Source of the DNA: Alphaproteobacteria bacterium
GTDB lineage: Bacteria; Pseudomonadota; Alphaproteobacteria; Rhizobiales; Devosiaceae
Direction of reading: 5' to 3'
Assembly (NCBI GenBank): GCA_018818925.1
Contig: JAHJQZ010000144.1
Location: 1-38,741 of the forward strand
DNA length: 38,741 bases
A program made the translations under genes and the position numbers. The stretch's first letter is position 1; the number at the start of each line of letters is the position of its first letter. Positions 1,938 through 32,183 of this stretch are shown here, in pieces. The notes under the pieces are model-generated. The model was not told the origin of the DNA, did not search any database, and worked only from the letters and a program-made list of their open reading frames with translations.

Positions 1938-3653
1938 CTAGAAGTTCGGATGTGGAATGGCCTCGATCAGGGCCTTCGTATAGGGATTTGTCGGGTGCTC
2001 GAGCACGGTTTCGCAGTCGCCCTGTTCGCCGATCCGGCCTTGCTTCATCACGATCACGCGGTCGCAAAGCAGCCGGACCACCGACAGGTCGTGCGACACG
2101 AACAGATAGCTCATGTTGAGTCGGGCCCGAAGGTCGACGAGCAGATTGAGAACCACCGCCTGCACGGAGACGTCGAGCGCCGCCGTCGGCTCGTCGAGCA
2201 CCAGCAGCGCCGGATCGACGGCGATGGCGCGGGCGATGCCTACGCGGGCTTTTTGGCCGCCGGAGAGCTGATGGGGAAAACGATCGAGCAAATGAGCGGG
2301 AAAGCCGACGAGCTCGGCCAGTTGCTCGACCCGTTCGGCGATAGCCCTGGCCGAGCCGAGCTTGCCCATGCGCCGGATTGGATCCGCGATGGAGCGCGCC
2401 GCCGAAAAGCGCGGATTGAGGCTGTCCGTCGGATCCTGGAAGACCATCTGCAGACGCGGGCGCTGCTCCGAGGTCGCGAAGCGCCCGGCCGGAATGGCGC
2501 CGATGTCCTGCCCTTGAAACACAATCGAGCCGCTGGTCGGATCGAGAAGGCGCATGGCCATCGCCGAAATCGTCGACTTGCCGCAGCCGGACTCACCGAC
2601 AAGCCCGACGCTTTCGCCATGGCCGACGGAAAAGGAAATGTCGTCGACGGCGCGGAATACCGGCGCCGGCTCGCCGCGCCGGCGTGCGGCCGACGCTTTC
2701 ATCGGGTATTCCTTGACGAGATTTTTCACCGCAAGGATCGGTGTGGTCTTGTGCTCGGCGCTCTTTGGTGAAGCCGGCACAGGACGGTTGGCGAGCGGGG
2801 AATCCTCGGGCAGGAGTTCGCGGATCGTGCCGGTGCCGTGCGGCGTGGCCCGGATCAACTTGCGCGTATAGGGGTGACGCGGCGCCTTGAACAGGACTTC
2901 GGCAGGCGCGGATTCGACGACTTCGCCATCCTTCATCACGATCAGGTCGTCGCAATAGCTGGCGGCAAGGCCGAGATCGTGGGTGATGAGGATGGTCGCC
3001 ATGCCGTGTTCGCGCGTCAGGTCGGCCATCAGGTCCATGACCGCCTTCTGCGTCGTGACATCGAGGCCGGTCGTCGGTTCGTCGGCGATCATCAATTGCG
3101 GTCGGCAGGCGAGGGCGAGGGCGATGACGATGCGCTGGCACATGCCACCCGAGAGTTCGAACGGATAGGAATGATAGCGCTCCTCGGGATTGTTGATGCG
3201 CACATGCCGAAGCGCTTCGATGGCCTTTTGCCTGGCGTTCGCGGCGCTGGCCTGAAGGTGCTGGCGCAGCACGTCCTCGATCTGATGGCCGACCTTGCGG
3301 ATCGGGTTGAGCGCCAGGCGCGGACTCTGGAAGACCATCGAGATTTCGCGACCGCGCAAGTCGCGCATTTCCGCTTCGGTCGCGGCGCCGATGTCGATGC
3401 TTGAAAACCTGACCCTTCCCCCGGCGATGTAGCCGGCGGCATCAAGAATGCGCATCAGCGCATAGGACGTGACCGACTTGCCCGAGCCGGACTCGCCGAC
3501 GATGCCAAGCGTCTTGCCTTTCATCAGCTCGAAACTGACATCGCGCACCGCGTGGACAATGCCGTTGCGCGTCTTGAAGTCGACCGACAGATTGTCGACC
3601 TTGACGAGCGGCACGGCCGCCTCGATCGTTCTGCCACCGTCCGAGAGTATCAT
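1938..3653 (-). CDS. Dipeptide/oligopeptide-type ABC transporter, fused double ATPase (DppD-DppF type)
   Basis: 571 aa. Two complete ABC ATPase domains in one chain energise the inner-membrane importer encoded upstream. Domain 1 (about 15-270) has Walker A GESGSGKS at 53-60, signature LSGGM at 167-171, Walker B and DE at 187-192, and H225. Domain 2 (about 305-571) has Walker A GESGCGKS at 353-360, then LSGGQ and LLVLDEP. Each domain is followed by the PYT(R/K)-type segment usual in Opp/Dpp ATPases. The domain-1 signature continues with Cys172 where Arg is common (LSGGMCQR). The frame is open further upstream, but that part lies inside the permease gene. ATG 3653 has GAGG just before it and follows the permease stop by 7 nt, so this start is well supported. 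Confidence 0.93.
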   Translation of the reverse strand: MILSDGGRTIEAAVPLVKVDNLSVDFKTRNGIVHAVRDVSFELMKGKTLGIVGESGSGKSVTSYALMRILDAAGYIAGGRVRFSSIDIGAATEAEMRDLRGREISMVFQSPRLALNPIRKVGHQIEDVLRQHLQASAANARQKAIEALRHVRINNPEERYHSYPFELSGGMCQRIVIALALACRPQLMIADEPTTGLDVTTQKAVMDLMADLTREHGMATILITHDLGLAASYCDDLIVMKDGEVVESAPAEVLFKAPRHPYTRKLIRATPHGTGTIRELLPEDSPLANRPVPASPKSAEHKTTPILAVKNLVKEYPMKASAARRRGEPAPVFRAVDDISFSVGHGESVGLVGESGCGKSTISAMAMRLLDPTSGSIVFQGQDIGAIPAGRFATSEQRPRLQMVFQDPTDSLNPRFSAARSIADPIRRMGKLGSARAIAERVEQLAELVGFPAHLLDRFPHQLSGGQKARVGIARAIAVDPALLVLDEPTAALDVSVQAVVLNLLVDLRARLNMSYLFVSHDLSVVRLLCDRVIVMKQGRIGEQGDCETVLEHPTNPYTKALIEAIPHPNF

Positions 3654-3660
3654 TTTGTCC

Positions 3661-4623
3661 TCACGTGCGCTGGCGTGGATCGACGAGGTCGCGAAGGCCG
3701 TCGCCGAGCATGTTGAACGTGAACACGGCGAGCATGAGCACCGCTCCTGGGAGCAGCGCCAACCACCATTCGCCGGAGACGATGAAGCGCGCGCCTTCGG
3801 CGACCATGATGCCCCATTCCGGGGTCGGCGGATTGACCCCGAGACCGATGAAGCTGAGGCCGGCTGCATTGAGAATGGCCCAGCCAAGGTTGAGCGAAAT
3901 CTGCACCATCATCGGCGGCAGGGCGTTCGGGAAGATCTGGGTGGCGAGCGCCCTGAGGTCGGTGTTGCCCGAGAGCTTGGCCGCCTGCACAAAGCCGGCA
4001 TCGCGCCGGACATTGACCTCGGCCCGTGCCATGCGGGCATAAAAGGGCAGGTTCACGATAGCCGTCGCGTAAACGATGTTTTCGACCGAATTGCCGAGCG
4101 CGGCGACGATGCCCATGGCCAGAACGAAGAGCGGGAAAGCCATGATCGTGTCGATGATGCGACCGGTGATCTTGTCGATCCAGCCGCCGTAATAGCCGGC
4201 CAGCGAGCCGACGATGGAGCCGAGGACGAACGAGATCGCCACGGCGGCCAGGGCGATGGTGAGGTCGAGGCGCGTGGCGACGAGGACACGCGAAAAAACA
4301 TCGCGTCCGAGATCGTCGGTGCCAAACCAGTGCGAAAAAGAAGGAGGCTGCAGGGCTGCCGCGGCTTCGCTCTTGAGCGGATTGTAGGGGGCGAGCACCG
4401 GCCCGAACACGGCCGCGAGCAGCATGACGACGAACAGAACCGAGGCGACCAGCGTCATCGGGTTGGACTTGAGCACGTAGACGAGATGTCTTGCTAGGCT
4501 CAGCGACGGCCGGCCCGCCGGAGCGCCGTGCGGCCGAAGTGGCGGGCCGGCATCCGGCGCGGGCGCGGGTTCGGGTGCAACGCTGGCGGCAAACGGATCG
4601 ATCGCTATCTCGGTGTGCTTCAT
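3661..4623 (-). CDS. Peptide-type ABC transporter permease, DppC/OppC family
   Basis: 320 aa inner-membrane permease. A Pro/Ala-rich N-terminal tail (about 10-40) precedes the first membrane segment (LVASVLFVVMLLAAVFGPVL) and the N-terminal OppC motif ending LAPYNP. The BPD_transp_1 domain follows, with the ATPase-contacting EAA loop ARMARAEVNVRRDAGFVQAAKLSG. It pairs with the DppB-like permease encoded just upstream to form the channel. ATG 4623 is chosen; a TTG two codons further upstream (4629) is also in frame, but GGGG lies at a reasonable distance from the ATG. The stop is 7 nt before the ATPase start, so translation is likely coupled along the operon. The substrate cannot be read from the permease. 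Confidence 0.92.
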   Translation of the reverse strand: MKHTEIAIDPFAASVAPEPAPAPDAGPPLRPHGAPAGRPSLSLARHLVYVLKSNPMTLVASVLFVVMLLAAVFGPVLAPYNPLKSEAAAALQPPSFSHWFGTDDLGRDVFSRVLVATRLDLTIALAAVAISFVLGSIVGSLAGYYGGWIDKITGRIIDTIMAFPLFVLAMGIVAALGNSVENIVYATAIVNLPFYARMARAEVNVRRDAGFVQAAKLSGNTDLRALATQIFPNALPPMMVQISLNLGWAILNAAGLSFIGLGVNPPTPEWGIMVAEGARFIVSGEWWLALLPGAVLMLAVFTFNMLGDGLRDLVDPRQRT

Positions 4624-4636
4624 CTGCAATCCCCGC

Positions 4637-5668
4637 CTAGCCGTCGAAGCCGACGCGCGGATCGATCGCGGTATAGGCGAGGTCGATCAGCAGATTGATG
4701 GTGACAAACAGGATGGCCATGGTCAGCACAAACCCTTGAACGGCCGCATAATCGGAGACCACGAGCGCCTCGACCGCATAAGACCCAATACCGGGCCAGG
4801 CAAAGACCTTCTCGACAAGCACGTTGGCGCCAAGCATGAAGGAAAAGACCATGCCGAGCGTGGTCACGATCGGCAGCAAGGCGTTGCGCAAGGCATAGGC
4901 GAACAGCACCTTGGTCCAGCCGAGCCCGGCCGCCCTTGCGGTACGGATGAATTCGCTCCCCAGCGCCTGCAGCATCGCGGCGCGCGTCATGCGGGCGATC
5001 GGCGCCAGTGTGAACAGGCCGAGCGTCATGGCCGGCAGGACGAGCTGCCGCAGCGCCGCCAGGGCCGTTTCGGCATCGCCGGCGATCAGGGCGTCGAACA
5101 CGTAAAACCCTGTCACCTGCGGGGGCGAGAGATAAATGAAATCGAGCCGTCCGAGCGGCGACGGCGCGATGCCGAGCAGGTAGTAAAGGACATAGACCAG
5201 CAACAACCCGGTGAAAAAGACCGGCAGCGACACGCCGGCGGTCACGATCAGCCGGCAGAGATGGTCGATCCAGGTGCCCGGCTGCGTGGCGGCGAGGATG
5301 CCGAGCGGCAGGGCGACGCCGATGGAAAGCAGCAGCGCCGTCAAGGTCAGTTCGAGCGAGGCCGGCAGGCGCGACATCACATCGGAAAGAACCGGCTGCC
5401 CGGTCGAGATGGACTCGCCGAGATTGCCGGTCATCAGGTCGCGGCAATAGATGAGGAATTGTTCGGGCATCGACTTGTCGAGCCCGAGCGCCACGCGCAC
5501 CTGTTCGATCGATTCCGCGGTTGCCGCCGGCCCGGCGAAATAGACCGCCGGGTCGCCCGGCAGGGCGCGGGTCAGAAGGAACGCAACGACGATCACGCCG
5601 ATCAGGGTCGGAATTGCCTGGACAACTCGCCCAAGCACCAGGCTCGACTTTGTTTTGACCTTCGCCAT
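4637..5668 (-). CDS. Peptide-type ABC transporter permease, DppB/OppB family
   Basis: 343 aa inner-membrane permease. The N-terminus carries the DppB/OppB hallmark: one membrane helix (LVLGRVVQAIPTLIGVIVVA) followed by FLLTRALPGDPA, then a periplasmic segment with the LGLDKSMPEQFLIY motif. Five more helices form the BPD_transp_1 domain, with EAA-loop sequence IARMTRAAMLQALGSEFIRTARAAG. ATG 5668 is preceded by AAGGGG about 8 nt upstream. The gene starts 30 nt after the binding-protein stop and ends 13 nt before the DppC-like start, consistent with one transcript. It is a normal length for the family with no visible defect. Confidence 0.93.
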   Translation of the reverse strand: MAKVKTKSSLVLGRVVQAIPTLIGVIVVAFLLTRALPGDPAVYFAGPAATAESIEQVRVALGLDKSMPEQFLIYCRDLMTGNLGESISTGQPVLSDVMSRLPASLELTLTALLLSIGVALPLGILAATQPGTWIDHLCRLIVTAGVSLPVFFTGLLLVYVLYYLLGIAPSPLGRLDFIYLSPPQVTGFYVFDALIAGDAETALAALRQLVLPAMTLGLFTLAPIARMTRAAMLQALGSEFIRTARAAGLGWTKVLFAYALRNALLPIVTTLGMVFSFMLGANVLVEKVFAWPGIGSYAVEALVVSDYAAVQGFVLTMAILFVTINLLIDLAYTAIDPRVGFDG

Positions 5669-5698: not shown

Positions 5699-7348
5699 CT
5701 ACGCCTTGGAGAGCTTGCGCGGATCGATCTGGCGATGGAACCAGTATTCATAGCCCTTGAGCGTCGGCTGCATGGCCGAACTGAGCGTCGGCTGCCACAG
5801 CGGGATGCGCGGCACCTCGTCGAAGGCGATCTCGATCAGGCGCTTGATCCTGGGCGCCCATTCCGCGTCGTCGACGGACATGTTCAGCGCTTCGGCGACC
5901 AGGGACTCGATCTCGGGATTCTTGTAGTTCGAGGCGTTGAACAGGCTGGTCTCGAGATAGGCCCAGTAGAAATAGTAGTCGGGGTAATTGAGCCAGCCGG
6001 CAAAATCGTCAAGCGACAGCTCGAGCCGCTTCTCGACCAGGGCCGCGGTGCGCCAATTGGCGCCGGGGATCTTCTCGATCGGCGCCTCGATGCCGATTTT
6101 GGCGAGGTTTTCCTGGATGAGGAGCGCTGCCGGCTCCATCCACGAAACGAGGTCGAGGCTGATATAGAAGGGCACCTTGAACCCATCGGCATAGCCGGCC
6201 TCCGCGAGAAGCGCCTTGGCCTTGTCGAGATCGGTCGAATAGGGGAAAGGCTGCGGCCAGGTCGCATCGGCCGGAGTCATCGCGGTTGCGCCCCACATCG
6301 GCACGCCCTGGGTATAGGCAGCGGTCTTGAAGATGTCCTCATAGGGCACGGCCCAGGCGATGGCCTGGCGCACGCGCTTGTCCTTGAACGGCTCGAAGAT
6401 CTCGTTGCAGCACACGACGAAGAGCGAATTCTCGATCGGGGTGGTGATCACCTCGAGATCGCCCTTGGCGCGCAGTTCGAGCGCGTCCTTGGGCGGCACT
6501 TCGTAGGCCATGTCGATATCGCCGCGCTCCACCAGGGCACGGCGCGTCGCCGGAGAGGGGATTTCGCGCATGATTACCCGCGCGACGCCGGGCAGAGGGC
6601 CGGAGGTCCACTTGTCGTTGCGGGCGTAAACAAGCTGCTGACCGGGGTCCCAGCGCTCGACGACGAAGGCGCCGCTGCCGGCGGTGTTGCGATGCAAGTA
6701 TTCGGTTGCCCACGGATCGTCGGGGGTGGCGTGGGCCAGCGCCACCTTGGAATTGATGATGAAGGGCACCGGCACGGCGAGGTCGGGCAGGGTGAGCTTG
6801 GAGAATTCCGGCAGCTTGACCACGAAGGTATGGTCGTCGACCGCCTCGAATTGATCGGCGGACGTCATCAAGCCCGCCCCCATCTGCGTCGTCGGGAAGC
6901 CGCCAAGGGTGACGGCGCGGTCGAGCGACCACTTGACATCGGCGGCCGTCACCGGCGTGCCATCGGCGAAGACGGCGTTGTCGCGCAATATGAAGGTAAT
7001 GGTCAGCCCGTCCTCGGAATAGGACCAGCTTTCGGCAATGTCGGGTTCGATGACGCTCGAATCGTAGCTTGAGGAACCGTCGGGCATGGTCTTGGTGCCG
7101 AACGAGACCAGTCGGTCATAGGCGTTGACCGCGACCTGGTAGGACGGCCTGTTGGTGCCCTGACGGTGCAGGTCGAGCGAATTGATCGTGGTGCCGAGCG
7201 CGACGACGGCGGTATCATTGGCCGCCGCCAAGGCCGGCAGCGTTCGGGCGAGCGGCAACACGGTGCCCAAGGCCAGGGCGGCGGCACCGGACGCGCCGGT
7301 TTTCAGGAAAGTTCGTCTCGATAGCGCCCGGGGAGTATCGTCCGTCAT
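5699..7348 (-). CDS. ABC transporter substrate-binding protein, family 5 (DppA/OppA type), Tat signal
   Basis: 549 aa periplasmic binding protein that determines the importer's specificity. The N-terminus is a twin-arginine signal: SRRTFLKTG, then a hydrophobic stretch (AAALALGTVLPLA) and a likely cleavage after PALA. The mature part has family-5 features: SWSYSEDGLTITFILRDNAVFADGTPVTAADVKWS near 115-150, then the long two-lobe peptide/nickel-type fold. ATG 7348 has AGGAG 8 nt upstream; an in-frame ATG 30 codons earlier is rejected because it would hide the Tat signal. It is the first gene of the operon, after a 369 bp divergent promoter region. The ligand is unknown; the allophanate hydrolase at the operon's end suggests a urea-, biuret- or amide-like compound (inference). 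Confidence 0.92.
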   Translation of the reverse strand: MTDDTPRALSRRTFLKTGASGAAALALGTVLPLARTLPALAAANDTAVVALGTTINSLDLHRQGTNRPSYQVAVNAYDRLVSFGTKTMPDGSSSYDSSVIEPDIAESWSYSEDGLTITFILRDNAVFADGTPVTAADVKWSLDRAVTLGGFPTTQMGAGLMTSADQFEAVDDHTFVVKLPEFSKLTLPDLAVPVPFIINSKVALAHATPDDPWATEYLHRNTAGSGAFVVERWDPGQQLVYARNDKWTSGPLPGVARVIMREIPSPATRRALVERGDIDMAYEVPPKDALELRAKGDLEVITTPIENSLFVVCCNEIFEPFKDKRVRQAIAWAVPYEDIFKTAAYTQGVPMWGATAMTPADATWPQPFPYSTDLDKAKALLAEAGYADGFKVPFYISLDLVSWMEPAALLIQENLAKIGIEAPIEKIPGANWRTAALVEKRLELSLDDFAGWLNYPDYYFYWAYLETSLFNASNYKNPEIESLVAEALNMSVDDAEWAPRIKRLIEIAFDEVPRIPLWQPTLSSAMQPTLKGYEYWFHRQIDPRKLSKA

Positions 7349-7391
7349 TGTCTGCTCCTTGCTTGCGGAACGGGTTAAGACCTTGCTAAGG

Positions 7392-7401
7392 AAGTGTATG
7401 C
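7392..7401 (+). promoter_or_regulatory. Putative operator site 1, AAGTGTATGC
   Basis: AAGTGTATGC, about 45 bp upstream of the binding-protein start. The same AAGTGTATRC word recurs 53 bp away (7445-7454), close to five helical turns, and its TGTATRC core recurs next to the GntR gene. GntR/FCD regulators commonly bind GTATAC-like palindromes, so these are predicted operators. Seen: the repeated word. Inferred: the function. Confidence 0.4.
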
Positions 7402-7444
7402 AAAAGCTATGCCGACTGAAAATACCATAGAAAATCATTGTATT

Positions 7445-7454
7445 AAGTGTATAC
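7445..7454 (+). promoter_or_regulatory. Putative operator site 2, AAGTGTATAC
   Basis: AAGTGTATAC contains the palindromic GTATAC core typical of FCD-class GntR operators. It lies about 97 bp upstream of the minus-strand ABC operon in AT-richer intergenic DNA, in the same orientation as site 1 and 53 bp from it. Confidence 0.42.
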
Positions 7455-7678
7455 GATCAACAGAATCTGATGAAGCCAATGCCTATTGTGGCAGCGATTA
7501 GCCTACAATTTAGCTAATGCAACGCAATGCATATATTACGTGCGATTGAATGCCTCCCTTCCCGGTGCAATCACGCGCCTCGTTCCGGCCCAGCGTCCCT
7601 GAGTCCGGCGAAATCCCGGAAATCAGGCGGTCATCACCGGTGAGGCCGCCCGCAAACGCTTCATTTTTGTCTGCCTTC

Positions 7679-22482: not shown

Positions 22483-22568
22483 TGCAGATTTCTTGTGCTA
22501 ATCAATTTAATCGATTCCTTGTCGTCTGAAAGTTGCAATCCACTAACGAATACGCTAAACGACGTACA

Positions 22569-22587
22569 GTTCATGAATAGAATGAAC
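22569..22587. promoter_or_regulatory. Inverted repeat GTTCAT-N7-ATGAAC before mucR
   Basis: Six-bp perfect arms with a 7-nt spacer, 28 bp before the mucR start codon. The gap 22483-22614 is markedly AT-rich against its surroundings, as expected for MucR/Ros autoregulatory DNA. TTGCAA (22536-22541) and TAAACG 17 bp further is a weak promoter candidate. Confidence 0.35.
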
Positions 22588-22614
22588 AAAAGCAAGAAAA
22601 GCAAAGGATGACCC

Positions 22615-23037
22615 ATGAACGACCAGTCTGCTTCCGCGACTGCGCCTGAAGTCGACCTCGTCGAACTCTCCACCGAGATCGTGTGTGCCTATGTCAGCCA
22701 TAACGCGATCAGCCCGTCCGACCTGCCCAAAGTGATCTTCGACGTGCATACTGCGCTCAAAGGCCTGCGTGGCAATGAAGTGCCGCCGCCGGCCGAGGAA
22801 CTCCGCCCCGCGGTTCCGGTGCGCAAGTCCGTGGCAAACGATTACATCATTTGTCTCGAAGACGGGAAGAAGTTCAAATCTCTCAAGCGTCACCTGAGGA
22901 CGCATTACAATCTGACGCCCGAGGAATATCGCGAGAAATGGGGCCTTGCGGCCGACTACCCGATGGTGGCGCCGAGCTACTCGGAAACCCGTTCGCGCCT
23001 GGCCAAGGACAATGGACTCGGCCGCAAGGCCGGTTAG
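22615..23037 (+). CDS. mucR: MucR/Ros family zinc-finger transcriptional regulator
   Basis: 140 aa global regulator; in rhizobia and Brucella the family controls exopolysaccharide, motility and virulence genes. The C-terminal single finger has Cys80, Asp83, His93 and His97 (CLEDGKKFKSLKRHLRTHY), so the second zinc ligand is Asp instead of Cys, as known for several MucR/Ml proteins. The conserved LTPEEYREKWGLAADYPMVAP follows. The N-terminal 10-60 region (oligomerisation in MucR) contains VELSTEIVCAYVSHN. ATG 22615 has AAAGGA 6 nt upstream. Monocistronic: a promoter region lies before it and hairpins follow. Confidence 0.94.
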   Translation: MNDQSASATAPEVDLVELSTEIVCAYVSHNAISPSDLPKVIFDVHTALKGLRGNEVPPPAEELRPAVPVRKSVANDYIICLEDGKKFKSLKRHLRTHYNLTPEEYREKWGLAADYPMVAPSYSETRSRLAKDNGLGRKAG

Positions 23038-28725: not shown

Positions 28726-29091
28726 ATGCCCCAGCTGCGATCCGACCTGTGGTGCGCCGCCTTTGTCCGGCGGCATAACGATATCGGCGACCGCGCCGTC
28801 GTCGTTCGCAAGGGCGACCCGGTCGCCGGACAGGTCTGGATCGAGCTCGATCACCTCGATGGCACGGTGACCCTGTTCGCCCCGGCTCCGGCGCCCTATT
28901 ACGAAGAAAAGTCGCATGACCGGCTGTTCGAGCGGCGGCTGACGCGGGCCGCGCCGGAAGCGGCGCGCGATCGCATGGAACGCGAGGCACGCTTCGACAG
29001 CGACTTCTGGCTGCTCGGGCTCGAAACGCGTTCCGACAATCCGGGAATCGACGTGGTTTCGGACGGCAAGGCTCGGGGCGGTACCGAGTAG
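28726..29091 (+). CDS. DUF1491 family protein
   Basis: 121 aa, no signal peptide, probably cytoplasmic. Typical family opening RSDLWCAAFVRRHNDIGDRAVVVRKGD, a strand-rich middle (AGQVWIELDHLDGTVTLFAPAPAP) and the C-terminal block RMEREARFDSDFWLLGLE. Function unknown. It starts 22 nt after the peptidoglycan-binding gene with GAACGAG upstream, and is probably the third gene of that operon. The palindromic element at 29118 follows and may end the transcript. Confidence 0.85.
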   Translation: MPQLRSDLWCAAFVRRHNDIGDRAVVVRKGDPVAGQVWIELDHLDGTVTLFAPAPAPYYEEKSHDRLFERRLTRAAPEAARDRMEREARFDSDFWLLGLETRSDNPGIDVVSDGKARGGTE

Positions 29092-29117
29092 GGCAGGTGT
29101 CCGATCAAGCTTTCGGC

Positions 29118-29219
29118 GTCATTGCGAGGCGCAACGCGACGAAGCAATCCAGAAGGCTTCGGGCGTCGGTGCTTGCAGCCCCCTGGATTGCCACGCGCCT
29201 TTCAGGCGCTCGCAATGAC
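29118..29219. repeat. Palindromic intergenic element, module A (complete copy)
   Basis: 102 bp. Outer arms GTCATTGCGAG (29118-29128) and CTCGCAATGAC (29209-29219); inner arms GCAATCCAG (29144-29152) and CTGGATTGC (29183-29191). The right half and the 40 or so bases after it recur at 30763-30852. Elements with the CATTGCGAG/CTCGCAATG ends are widespread in this order. Confidence 0.85.
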
Positions 29220-29275
29220 GGCGAAAAGTAATGCCCCTGGACTATTTCACGTCTTGACGCAAACAGGTGGCTCGC

Positions 29276-29370
29276 TTTCCTCTCCCTTGTGGGCAGGGTT
29301 GGCGAACAGGACTTGGCTTCAGCCAAGTTCGTCGTGCGCCTGGGTGGGGGCTGCGCCGGTGCTTGTGGCC
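29276..29370 (+). repeat. Intergenic repeat, module B copy 1
   Basis: About 95 bp beginning TTTCCTCTCCCTTGTGGGCA and ending GGTGCTTGTGGCC. It contains a hairpin CTTGGCT-TC-AGCCAAG. It recurs almost unchanged, same orientation, at 30668-30762. Confidence 0.85.
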
Positions 29371-29412
29371 CCACCCCACCCTCAATCCCTCCCCATCAAG
29401 GGGAGGGAAGCC
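29370..29412 (+). repeat. Intergenic repeat, module D copy 1
   Basis: CCACCCCACCCTCAATCCCT followed by CCCCATCAAGGGGAGGGAAG. The inverse orientation of the same sequence is at 37324-37365, with a few differences. Confidence 0.8.
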
Positions 29413-29686
29413 AGCTATACGACGGATCGAAATGCGCGAATCCGGTTCCTGACTTTGCGCACAATGCTCTATTGGTCAAAATCTCACACTTGGTACCGTT
29501 GGGAAGGCGTCGGCTCCCGACCTCGTTTAAGGCATTCCAAAGTCCAGAATCGCCTCCCGAAAGCAGACTTTCTTCGTGCGAAGCCCTTCGTCTTAGGTGT
29601 GAGGAGTATGGCTGAAGTCTGATAGCCGCTACCTTCGAGGGACTGGCTTTGCTGAACCAGTTGGCTCATCGCTGGAGAGCGGCTAC
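29413..29686. other. AT-richer region upstream of the orphan gene
   Basis: Non-coding DNA of visibly lower GC than the neighbouring operons. No recognisable protein or RNA gene was found. It ends in the promoter of the orphan gene. An imperfect ACTGG...CCAGT repeat is at 29642-29661. Confidence 0.5.
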
Positions 29687-29695
29687 TGGTATAAT
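29687..29695 (+). promoter_or_regulatory. Extended -10 promoter TGGTATAAT
   Basis: A consensus TATAAT at 29690-29695 with the TGn extension directly before it. No good -35 is at 16-18 bp upstream, as is usual for extended -10 promoters. Transcription would start near 29702, 46 bp before the GTG start at 29748. This rules out the upstream in-frame TTG at 29649 as a start for this transcript. Confidence 0.55.
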
Positions 29696-29747
29696 TTTTG
29701 AATCACGATTTCGTTCGAATTCACTTCAATCCAATGCGGAGCCGGAT

Positions 29748-30407
29748 GTGGTCGAGTTTTTCCAATATTTGGGGCAAGAATGGAAAGTGATCGGCGGTGC
29801 TCCTTTCACATTCATTGTTGGACTCTTCTTCGCAGGGACAGCAATTTGGTTTGTAATCAAAGGGATGGGCGCCGCCACCGAGTCCGCATTGCGCGAACGG
29901 ATATCCTTGAGAGATGATCAACTTCTGGATTACAAAGAAAAGCTCTCAGGCGCTTCACCAGATGAGGCCAGACAGCGAATCGAGGCTCTCGAACTGAGAA
30001 TAGCTGAGCTTGAGCCCGTGACCATACCTCAGCACCAACAACTAGCTATGATCAATGTTTTGCGGTCGGCCATCGGGCAGGTGTCGATTTTTCGTGAGAT
30101 GGGATCAGCCAGCCTTAGCAAGTTACACAACCAGCTGTCTTCCGTGTTTCATCAAGCGGGGTGGACGGTCATTAATGGGACTGGGATGGACATGAGTTTC
30201 GAGCCAGATTCGAAGGTTACAGTCACATCTCCGAACCTCACTAATCCCCAGTTTCAGGCATTGAGTGAAGCGCTCAAATTGAGCGGCATTCAATTCAAGT
30301 CCATCGTAGATGAGTCGTATGTGAAGAAGGACACAAGTGAACCAACACTAAGTATCCGACTAGCTGACGACTTTGTCAAAATGGACACTTGGTCTCTGTC
30401 TGCTTGA
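29748..30407 (+). CDS. Orphan membrane/coiled-coil protein, unknown function
   Basis: 219 aa from GTG 29748, which has GGAG 6 nt upstream and lies downstream of an extended -10 promoter; TTG 29649 is a longer alternative. One membrane helix at about 17-38 (TFIVGLFFAGTAIWFVIKGM), then a charged heptad-rich segment (ALRERISLRDDQLLDYKEKLSGASPDEARQRIEALELRIAELEP) that should form a coiled coil, then a soluble C-terminal domain of about 120 residues with alternating helices and strands. The DYKEKLSGASPDEA segment is like a widespread family of membrane proteins without assigned function (recollection). Codon use and GC are lower than all neighbours, and the gene sits between copies of repeat modules A and B, which suggests horizontal acquisition. 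No partner gene is adjacent. Confidence 0.65.
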   Translation: MVEFFQYLGQEWKVIGGAPFTFIVGLFFAGTAIWFVIKGMGAATESALRERISLRDDQLLDYKEKLSGASPDEARQRIEALELRIAELEPVTIPQHQQLAMINVLRSAIGQVSIFREMGSASLSKLHNQLSSVFHQAGWTVINGTGMDMSFEPDSKVTVTSPNLTNPQFQALSEALKLSGIQFKSIVDESYVKKDTSEPTLSIRLADDFVKMDTWSLSA

Positions 30408-30667
30408 TACGTTGCTTAAGGATCTCTATGTTTCGAACCATTTTGTCACGTGAGGTCTGCTAACCTAGGGAGGCGGAGCTTTATCCCGAAGACACGGCCC
30501 AACCGCTACGGCAGGCATGGAGCGCAAACCGGTTGAGCGGCTTCACTGTCCAAATGTCTGCTTATCGCGCTTGCCGCCGCCAAAGCTGCCAGTCCGCATC
30601 CCACCCCGTCCCGGTCGTTTGGCCGTCGATCATGATGGGTACCAAGTGTCAGGTTTTGACCACCAGC
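30408..30667. other. Non-coding stretch after the orphan gene
   Basis: AT-richer for the first 70 or so bases, then GC-rich. Short open frames here overlap each other on both strands without codon bias. No gene, RNA or clear terminator supported; possibly decayed sequence. Confidence 0.45.
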
Positions 30668-30762
30668 TTCCCTCCCCCTTGTGGGCAGGGTTGGCGAACA
30701 GGACTTGGCTTCAGCCAATTCGTCGTGAGCCTGGGTGGGGGGCTGCGCCGGTGCTTGTGGCC
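30668..30762 (+). repeat. Intergenic repeat, module B copy 2
   Basis: Second copy of the 29276-29370 module, same orientation, differing at a handful of positions (for example CCAATTCG against CCAAGTTCG). Here it stands before module A, whereas at 29118-29370 it stands after module A. Confidence 0.85.
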
Positions 30763-30852
30763 CTCTGAATTGCCACGCGCCTTTCAGGCGCTGGCAATGA
30801 CGGCGAAAAGCAATGCCCCCAGGCACTTACATGTTTTAACGGAAACAGGCTG
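30763..30852 (+). repeat. Intergenic repeat, module A copy 2 (right half only)
   Basis: Matches 29181-29270: TGCCACGCGCCTTTCAGGCG and the sequence after it up to AAACAGG, with scattered differences. The left arm (GTCATTGCGAG) is missing, so the copy is truncated and cannot form the full hairpin. Confidence 0.8.
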
Positions 30853-30864
30853 TTTGGCGTCTTT

Positions 30865-30993
30865 CACCTCTCCCTTGGGGGAGAGGTCGGGCCGCAGCAA
30901 AGCGGAGGTCCGGGTGAGGGGGCCTTCGCGGAGTTTGCAGAAAGGCCCCCTCACCCGCCGCTTCGCGTCGACCTCTCCCCCAAGGGAGAGGTG
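30865..30993. repeat. Large palindromic intergenic repeat, module C copy 1
   Basis: 129 bp with 25-bp perfect terminal arms (CACCTCTCCCTTGGGGGAGA... against ...CTCCCCCAAGGGAGAGGTG) and an inner inverted pair GGGTGAGGGGGCC and GGCCCCCTCACCC. Two more copies lie at 37171 and 37408. It ends 38 bp before the DUF2336 stop codon. Confidence 0.92.
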
Positions 30994-31031
30994 AAGGAAG
31001 CACCCGCTGCCTTCAAAAACATGGAACGCCC

Positions 31032-32183
31032 TCAGCTCGCCTGGCGCAGGCCGCTCAGCTTGATCGCCGCCACGGCCCGGGCGATGGCCGGGTCCGAGAT
31101 CGTCGTATCGCGGGTCACGTCCGCCCGGCGCCGGGCCGGCTCGGCGGTGCGCTGGTATTCGGGCTTGCCCAGATCCATCAGGTCGACCTCGCCACGCCAG
31201 GCGCTGAGCAGATAGGCCATCGCGTCCGGGCTGATGTCCTGGAACAGCTTGGCGAATTCGCTCAAGGCCTGCGAGCGGTCGCGGTCGTGGCTGGTGGCGT
31301 GGATCAGCACCTTGAGCCCGTCATAGGCGGTGCAGGAAAAGGCCCTGAGCACCACAAAGAGCGCCGCCCCCGACGTGTCGTGGGCGATCTGGCCGCAGCG
31401 CACCTCGTCAAGGCCGGTGATCTGGCTCAAAAGGCGCGTGACCTCGGGCCGCCGGTTCTCGGTATAAAGCTTCATCAGGGCGCGGGTCAGGTCCTTGGTC
31501 GCCACCGAAATCTGCTCGATGGTCTTCTTGATCGGCGCTTCCGGCGTCTTGCGGGCGTCGAAGGCATGAATGACCATCAGCCGCTCGGTCTCGGGCAGGT
31601 CGAAAAAGGCCGGGGCGAGAAGGGCAGTGTCGAAATCGTCGCGATTGGCGAGCAGCCGGGCGATTTCATGGTCCATCTGCGCCGAGCGGGCATAGGCGCC
31701 GAGGAAGGCGCCGCGCGGCACGATGTTGCGATTGGCCGCCAGCGCGCGATAGACGCGGCGGGAATTCATCTGGAACAGCCTGGTCAGGATCGGGGCGTTG
31801 AGATCGTGACGTGCCGCGACGGCCGAGCACAGATCGACATCGCCGCCGTCGATGAGTTCGGCGAGCGCTTCGTCCGACAGGCCGCGGGCCGCCGCCACAA
31901 AACCCGGCAACCCGTCGCCGAGATGTTCCATGACCAGTTTCTGCAGGATGGGCGACAATGTGTCGGAAGCCGCCAGCGCTTCGGCCGCCTTTTGCCGCGC
32001 ATCCGGCGTGGCGGTGCGGAACAGCCGACTGGCCAGCGCTTCGAACTGGGCGATTTCGGATTGTGGCGGCTTGCGCCGATGCGCGAATGCGTCGCAGGCC
32101 GCGATCAGCAGGGTATTGGCTCGGTCTATGCCGCCGGTTTCGACCAGGAGCTGGAAGGTTTCGTAGGGCTGAAAGCCGATCAT
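31032..32183 (-). CDS. DUF2336 domain protein
   Basis: 383 aa, cytoplasmic, nearly all helical with HEAT-like repeats (for example ILQKLVMEHLGDGLPGFVAAARGLSDEALAELIDGGD). The family signature FAHRRKPPQSEIAQFEALASRLF is at about 33-55. Family function is not established. The family is common in Hyphomicrobiales. ATG 32183 has a weak GAG ribosome site. The upstream gap with the divergent small gene holds a near-consensus CtrA-type site (32239-32255), so cell-cycle control is possible. The C-terminus is Arg/Ala-rich. A palindromic repeat lies downstream. Confidence 0.85.
   Translation of the reverse strand: MIGFQPYETFQLLVETGGIDRANTLLIAACDAFAHRRKPPQSEIAQFEALASRLFRTATPDARQKAAEALAASDTLSPILQKLVMEHLGDGLPGFVAAARGLSDEALAELIDGGDVDLCSAVAARHDLNAPILTRLFQMNSRRVYRALAANRNIVPRGAFLGAYARSAQMDHEIARLLANRDDFDTALLAPAFFDLPETERLMVIHAFDARKTPEAPIKKTIEQISVATKDLTRALMKLYTENRRPEVTRLLSQITGLDEVRCGQIAHDTSGAALFVVLRAFSCTAYDGLKVLIHATSHDRDRSQALSEFAKLFQDISPDAMAYLLSAWRGEVDLMDLGKPEYQRTAEPARRRADVTRDTTISDPAIARAVAAIKLSGLRQAS

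Follow-up and report, generated by a model that had tools for sequence, protein, structure and literature searches.

Mobile insertion cassettes and other elements without a transposase

Mobile insertion cassettes (MICs) consist of two inverted repeats around a passenger gene and contain no transposase, and one of them, MIC231A1, is mobilised in trans, according to PMC3913671. The term is also used in PMC3129680, and a paper on the Paracoccus mobilome (PMC3281130) places MICs together with MITEs among the known non-autonomous elements. The element described here resembles MIC231 of Bacillus cereus, mic-qnrD and mic-qnrS2 in having two inverted repeats, a passenger and no transposase inside. MIC231 has a parent IS, IS231A, whereas none was found here, as is also the case for mic-qnrD and mic-qnrS2. 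Here a single family of ends surrounds many different cargoes in several alphaproteobacterial groups. A target-site duplication usually accompanies a MIC, and the IS that mobilises it in trans has the same ends.

MITEs likewise have inverted repeats and no transposase, and one 102-bp member of the present family (L172, 5001-5102), too short for a gene, takes this form. Most members, however, are long enough for whole genes and many carry them; the element studied here has the coding capacity that a MITE lacks, provided that its ORF is a gene. Integron gene cassettes, which carry one attC each and stand in arrays, also combine a common end sequence with interchangeable genes. The present family differs from them in that each cassette has a facing pair of ends and most of the sites are dispersed, and the parallel ends of an integron-type layout were seen in 0 of 36 end pairs, 34 of which face each other.

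An orphan gene of deviant composition

The gene at the centre of this work lies in a 38,741-nucleotide stretch of a Devosiaceae genome, which was analysed whole and is called the window. It occupies 29748-30407 on the + strand, with a GTG start at 29748, a stop at 30407 and 219 codons. The original prediction had singled it out for its GC content and codon use, and both indeed deviate. Its GC of 0.491 (0.54/0.40/0.54 at the three codon positions) and its codon-adaptation-like score of 0.427 are the lowest of the 20 ORFs compared, against 0.617-0.723 and 0.540-0.812 in the 19 others, which were picked by size and may include some in the wrong frame. The 500-bp blocks spanning 29501-30500 are also the GC minimum of the window (0.510, 0.490); this is not its sole low-GC region, the next-lowest blocks being 22501-23000 (0.544) and 7001-7500 (0.576).

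The same prediction gave the gene its own extended -10 element, and a perfect match, TGGTATAAT, lies at 29687-29695 on the + strand. The string TGNTATAAT occurs once in the 38.7 kb on both strands, inside this site, which by its consensus match is the likely promoter of the cargo gene; the list of a two-hexamer promoter scan did not include it. GGAG stands 6 nt upstream of the GTG. To judge from sequence, the gene is probably expressed.

The architecture that had been proposed was recovered in outline: after an N-terminal hydrophobic helix (peak window at residues 19-37, mean KD 2.03) come a run of basic residues, a helical region and a C-terminal part, and an AF2 model made from the single sequence is poor (mean pLDDT 46.7). 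Because the basic stretch follows the helix, the C-terminal part would be cytoplasmic and held at the membrane. At best tentatively, the product can be seen as anchored in the membrane with a domain in the cytoplasm, and as a possible sensor or regulator. Its layout (membrane helix, coiled coil, 'SPDEAR..IEALE', alternating C-terminal domain) may resemble that of uncharacterised proteins common in proteobacteria; two probes modelled on such a layout had no match in plasmids.

The protein had no match in the 60 other relatives searched, nor in the viral contigs, plasmids and phages searched. The sole match in a scan of GTDB contigs (L005) is a chance one, lying in and before a glycosyltransferase-like frame with one peptide word in common. 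A scan of the class reached E <= 1 in 45 of 289 genomes, its own counted (best other E 0.0027); 29 other loci read from it held unrelated longer proteins or broken or non-coding-looking frames, none with the target layout. The best E among PDB sequences was 0.58 and the best PHROGs value 0.057, and the best Pfam match, Knl1_RWD_C (E 0.013), is below the Pfam cut-off and is not believed. An Rfam scan of 29000-31100 and a tRNA scan found nothing. The suggestion of a stress or phage-defence membrane sensor went unsupported: the only PADLOC match is a weak one (CorA-like, E 0.0024) over the helical stretch at residues 72-125, PADLOC gave no convincing defence family, and a defence role is improbable.

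Is the ORF a gene at all? It could be a chance open frame in what is only a long MITE-like relic, a reading that accommodates the lack of a homologue in any search, the stop-free runs of >=219 codons in 47 of 5000 Markov-1 simulated elements and the existence of the 102-bp member without room for a gene. It sits poorly with a promoter-like site that is unique in the window, a well-spaced ribosome site, a clear membrane helix and an organisation shared with members whose genes can be recognised, and such a relic is distinctly unlikely.

Inverted ends, dispersed repeats and an empty site

The decisive feature, absent from the original prediction, is a pair of facing inverted repeats, TGGTCAAAATCTCACACTTGGTACC at 29473-29497 (+ strand) and TGGTCAAAACCTGACACTTGGTACC at 30638-30662 (read on the - strand). 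They are 25 nt long, lie 1140 nt apart, match at 23 of 25 bases (92% complementary) and form the third inverted pair listed by the repeat search. In the weight matrix of the end family they score 45.1 bits (left, with its outer block) and 45.6 bits (right), and over 58 bp the right end shares 91% identity with one of the ends of another member, L151. The element that they bound is 1.19 kb long, or 29469-30666 once the outer blocks of 4 bp are added (left CTAT, right CCAG). Read inward these blocks are CTAT and CTGG; they differ from the family consensus, CTAG, and an exact target duplication is therefore not seen. The repeats enclose an AT-richer stretch (GC 0.51 vs 0.66 in the flanks), in which the cargo gene is the only ORF of >=70 aa kept. 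With two inverted repeats and a passenger without a transposase match in Pfam or NCBIfam, the element has the architecture of a MIC. A two-ended element of IS size might also be a decayed autonomous IS whose ORF is a remnant of its transposase or of an accessory gene, but the lack of a transposase match, the membrane helix of the protein and the unrelated genes carried by other members make this a remote prospect.

The genome itself holds the end pattern at the two window places and at one more with three mismatches. A second element with related, more decayed ends lies on another contig (C41:4172-7741), one end passing the matrix and the other seen by BLAST to the window's end; its cargo is an MCP gene and a CheW gene. 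This element bears on the possibility of a chimera or contaminant, which an atypical gene in a draft genome of 177 contigs with 4.63% contamination might suggest. Not only does the same end type occur on another contig, but the neighbours on both sides are typical of the family and the flanking repeats recur in the same genome, so that an artefact of this kind is hardly credible.

The repeats around the gene follow the predicted order, A-B-(D) before it and B-A-C after it. Module A, a dispersed palindromic repeat, has its left copy at 29101-29267 and a partial right copy, 84% identical, at 30745-30849; module B, also dispersed, has its left copy at 29274-29380 and a right copy, 95% identical, at 30666-30763, which starts at the right end of the cassette. 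In BLAST searches of the own genome A has at least 54 pieces and B at least 31, lower bounds that include palindromic double matches and come from 40 of 67 and 40 of 68 scored candidates. The end of a third dispersed repeat (29441-29472) stands directly outside the left cassette end, and module C, a large palindrome with arms of 42 nt, lies at 30857-31001. Because A and B have dozens of pieces elsewhere in the genome, they alone explain nothing about the cargo gene; they are dispersed genome repeats and not cassette carriers. The notion that the gene belongs with these modules finds no support, as they are scattered over many places and the ends of the element lie inside them. Recombination between dispersed copies could nonetheless have trapped a foreign gene, with the inverted repeats incidental, since A and B stand on both sides of it and are common in the genome. 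The inverted repeats, however, are what bounds the low-GC stretch, and unrelated cargo lies between such ends in loci that were retrieved through the ends alone, so that such trapping is very improbable.

The neighbouring genes mark the site of insertion. DUF1491 (28726-29091, + strand) lies to the left and DUF2336 (31032-32183, - strand), convergent with it, to the right. A DUF2336 query matched in 25 of 41 genomes, its own included, and in 22 of the 24 relatives of the same family the two genes stand side by side, convergent and without the cassette. The gap between them is 5 to ~800 bp in these relatives (<270 bp in 20 of the 22, by alignment edges) vs 1940 bp here. In the remaining two, no DUF1491 was found within 1.5 kb of the DUF2336 examined, and the cargo protein matches none of the 24. 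Relatives thus offer the site without the gene that had been foreseen, and the opposite outcome, in which every relative would have the gene in this position and with codon use to match, did not occur. The inverted-repeat element, the absence of the protein from 60 relatives and the adjacency of the neighbours in 22 of 24 support the proposal of a horizontally acquired single-gene cargo.

The same ends around other genes

The consensus of the family ends, CTAGTGGTCAAAATCTGACGCTTGGTACC, was found in rhizobial and methylobacterial plasmids and in a few percent of related genomes. BLAST of the two window ends against plasmids gave 8 and 5 records, from Mesorhizobium, Microvirga, Rhizobium, Sinorhizobium and Methylobacterium together with three weak unrelated ones. 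Four of the six plasmid loci read (L117-L120) have an inverted partner 0.67-0.93 kb off, one annotated gene between and CTAG outside 7 of 8 ends, and the other two (L115, L121) have a single end only. A wider plasmid search reached E <= 1 in 29 of 72,556 records, of which 25 cover 80% of the query and the few weakest are probably chance. Among genomes, the ends occur in 14 of 397 drawn from the order and 7 of 385 from the class (its own counted in both), and in 20 of 199 and 14 of 394 from two families; these sets overlap, and the reversed-pattern control was zero in every row listed. A viral contig collection gave one exact match to the end sequence.

A weight matrix was built from 70 distinct ends, CTAG included, and, applied to 598,060 bases of loci in reverse, had 0 matches at 14 bits. 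Rows were dropped before pairs were counted: L148 shares its site with L147, L208 duplicates L206, L159 holds the element of L185, and L116 and L184 have no ends; L147 and L197 were counted separately despite their common cargo. The 36 consecutive end pairs in the fetched loci comprise the 34 facing ones and two that diverge. Facing pairs span 102 to 11,461 bp, with 27 of the 34 at 480-2330 bp, and GC is below that of the flanks in 24 of them (mean -0.036 over the 34, Wilcoxon p 0.0018). Both outer edges have CTAG in 24 of the 34 pairs, a count somewhat biased because the matrix itself includes CTAG, and in a side-by-side comparison of 23 of these 24 nothing further out looks shared. This CTAG may reflect a TA or CTAG duplication or may belong to the ends. 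For 54 further ends a partner was not found in the stretch examined. At L152 (~4977) and L163 (~5011), in two genomes, the end is one arm of a short palindrome, its partner likewise not found in the stretch examined.

The passengers differ from pair to pair. In 19 of the 34, record annotation or Pfam places a passenger in a named family, and these families are highly diverse; the other 15, the window's among them, have no passenger of a recognised family (unrecognised ORFs or no clear gene). Record annotation gives HAD hydrolase, NTF2-like and ankyrin proteins (L118-L120). Pfam gives single genes or short sets: glyoxalase-like (L151), DUF1648 (L157), alpha/beta hydrolase (L161), ankyrin-cytochrome (L165), O-methyltransferase (L173), OprB porin (L177), DUF4440 (L248), SLFN_AlbA/AAA (L249, with a weak left end), TetR with a glyoxalase-like gene (L254), TetR (L256), HxlR with NmrA (L258), DUF2726 (L259), aldo/keto reductase (L282), molybdopterin oxidoreductase with SLAC1 (L147; L197 is counted as recognised by its identity to L147) and carboxymuconolactone decarboxylase with a sigma factor (L203). 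In the single-ended locus L288 the first genes of this L203 set are found again.

Some loci touch on defence. The 7.8-kb pair at L249 (3053-10860) holds TPR, SLFN_AlbA and Ppl-like AAA genes, possibly a defence island moved as a cassette. L289 carries, at 3075-5506, a gene for an nSTAND3 NTPase that matches the defence candidate PDC-S73; the gene starts ~190 bp inside a family end.

Evidence of movement

Family members have moved in the past. Sinorhizobium CCBAU 05631 has a 740-bp member at its type III secretion locus, and pSJ05684a has this member at 100% identity between unrelated flanks, the identity stopping at the edges of the element. It stands at a third site, in pNGR234b, at 94%. In pNGR234a the left flank of this member (98.1% over 2.8 kb) runs to the element edge and the element is absent; a target duplication is unreadable there (S. 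fredii) because the right flank is not homologous.

A second case is an 11.4-kb member that genomes G343 and G876 share at 96.8% identity across 11,395 bp while its flanks differ between them (L147, L197). The match stops at one element end; on the other side it stops 48 bp (L147) or 73 bp (L197) inside, and there the end sequence itself aligns separately. The 11.4-kb block of L147, L148 and L197 consists of molybdopterin oxidoreductase, SLAC1 and other genes. L206 and L208 lie within a larger duplication and were for that reason kept out of the evidence for mobility.

In search of the moving enzyme

Which enzyme moves these elements? A Pfam scan of 92 proteins, made up of 86 of the 133 listed ORFs and 6 from paired elements, matched 154 families, and among the 25 of these that were listed a transposase with the ends of this family was not found. 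Among the ORFs scanned, the transposase genes inside pairs are a nested IS1182 (L185) and a 135-aa HTH_Tnp_1 fragment (L256). The latter lies beside the TetR gene in a pair with a weak left end (2291-4446) and might be the remnant of an inserted IS. Other transposase-domain proteins were placed by Pfam at L207:2563-3630, L196, L262 and L162, and others were assigned by similarity or by eye at L115 and, two more, in L207; the 92-protein scan also gave one DDE_Tnp_1 match. An IS91-like ORF was seen by eye in L201.

IS1182 has an apparent claim to be the parent, with a copy inside a family member (L185, 7405-9075) and another beside a family end in L288 (near 4165). The L185 copy, however, is nested and has different ends of its own, GGCTGTGTNAAAAC, and the sharing of ends expected of a derivative was not found; in L288 only one GGCTGTGTNAAAAC-type end was found. 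Four other IS1182 loci have no family end within 9 mismatches of 29, and the IS1182 transposase that was tested finds no match in the genome of the window. The IS1182 copies in L185, L288 and, to judge from its flanks, L180 lie at GACCC/GATCC motifs that resemble the ones just inside the ends of cassettes, and such motifs may be insertion hot spots for IS1182. Two other ISs near family ends look different by eye: in L176, where one family end was seen, an IS66 appears to have its own ends with an 8-bp duplication, and an IS in L115 seems to have its own ends.

IS630-type enzymes prefer CTAG or TA and cut at TA. The CTAG at most outer edges of family members is a likeness to IS630 and Tc1-mariner elements, and because of it the favoured picture is that of an enzyme that would cut at TA within CTAG, duplicate the TA and act on ends starting with GTGG. 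The IS630 copies at hand differ from the family: the one beside the member in L291 has other ends, and the one in L196 seems by eye to have its own ends, although a script found none at its threshold. At L292 (pNGR234b, 2501-5450) tandem cassettes, the second with an adenylate cyclase-TPR protein by eye, abut at CCAC/GTGG with neither TA nor CTAG between, which is not as simple cut-and-paste predicts.

A pool of interchangeable cassettes?

The end pair, the varied cargo of its relatives, their past movement and the empty site lead to the conclusion that a mobile insertion cassette without a transposase carries the cargo gene as its single passenger, and that this cassette belongs to a family apparently not yet described; a probability of roughly 0.87 is attached to this reading. 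The events at the locus may have run as follows. A transposase made elsewhere, acting in trans, would recognise the two inverted ends and move everything between them, mostly into CTAG sites. The cassette would have inserted among dispersed repeats between the convergent DUF1491 and DUF2336 genes, its AT-richer DNA bringing in an orphan gene for a membrane protein together with a promoter-like site, and its ends would have decayed slightly since.

Neither the end sequence nor such a family was found in the open-licence PubMed Central text searched. Since the MIC architecture is known and the end family is absent from that literature, the kind of element is known and the family, set against open-licence literature only, appears new. 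In the literature examined, MICs are each described on their own, next to a resistance gene or a parent IS. One end family with many passengers and no visible parent raises the questions of which enzyme moves the cassettes and how genes enter them. The 29-bp signature offers a means of finding more.

Given that these ends surround many different genes in other alphaproteobacteria, single genes seem to be passed around among such bacteria. Whether this amounts to a widespread alphaproteobacterial system of interchangeable cassettes, in which one pair of ends and a trans-acting transposase would capture and move nearly any gene or operon up to ~11 kb and the window gene would be an orphan of the pool, is an evenly balanced question. 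Such cassettes would explain isolated, compositionally odd genes that otherwise resemble unexplained horizontal transfer. If the larger picture is true, the system would parallel the integron cassette pool, with inverted repeats as its basis.
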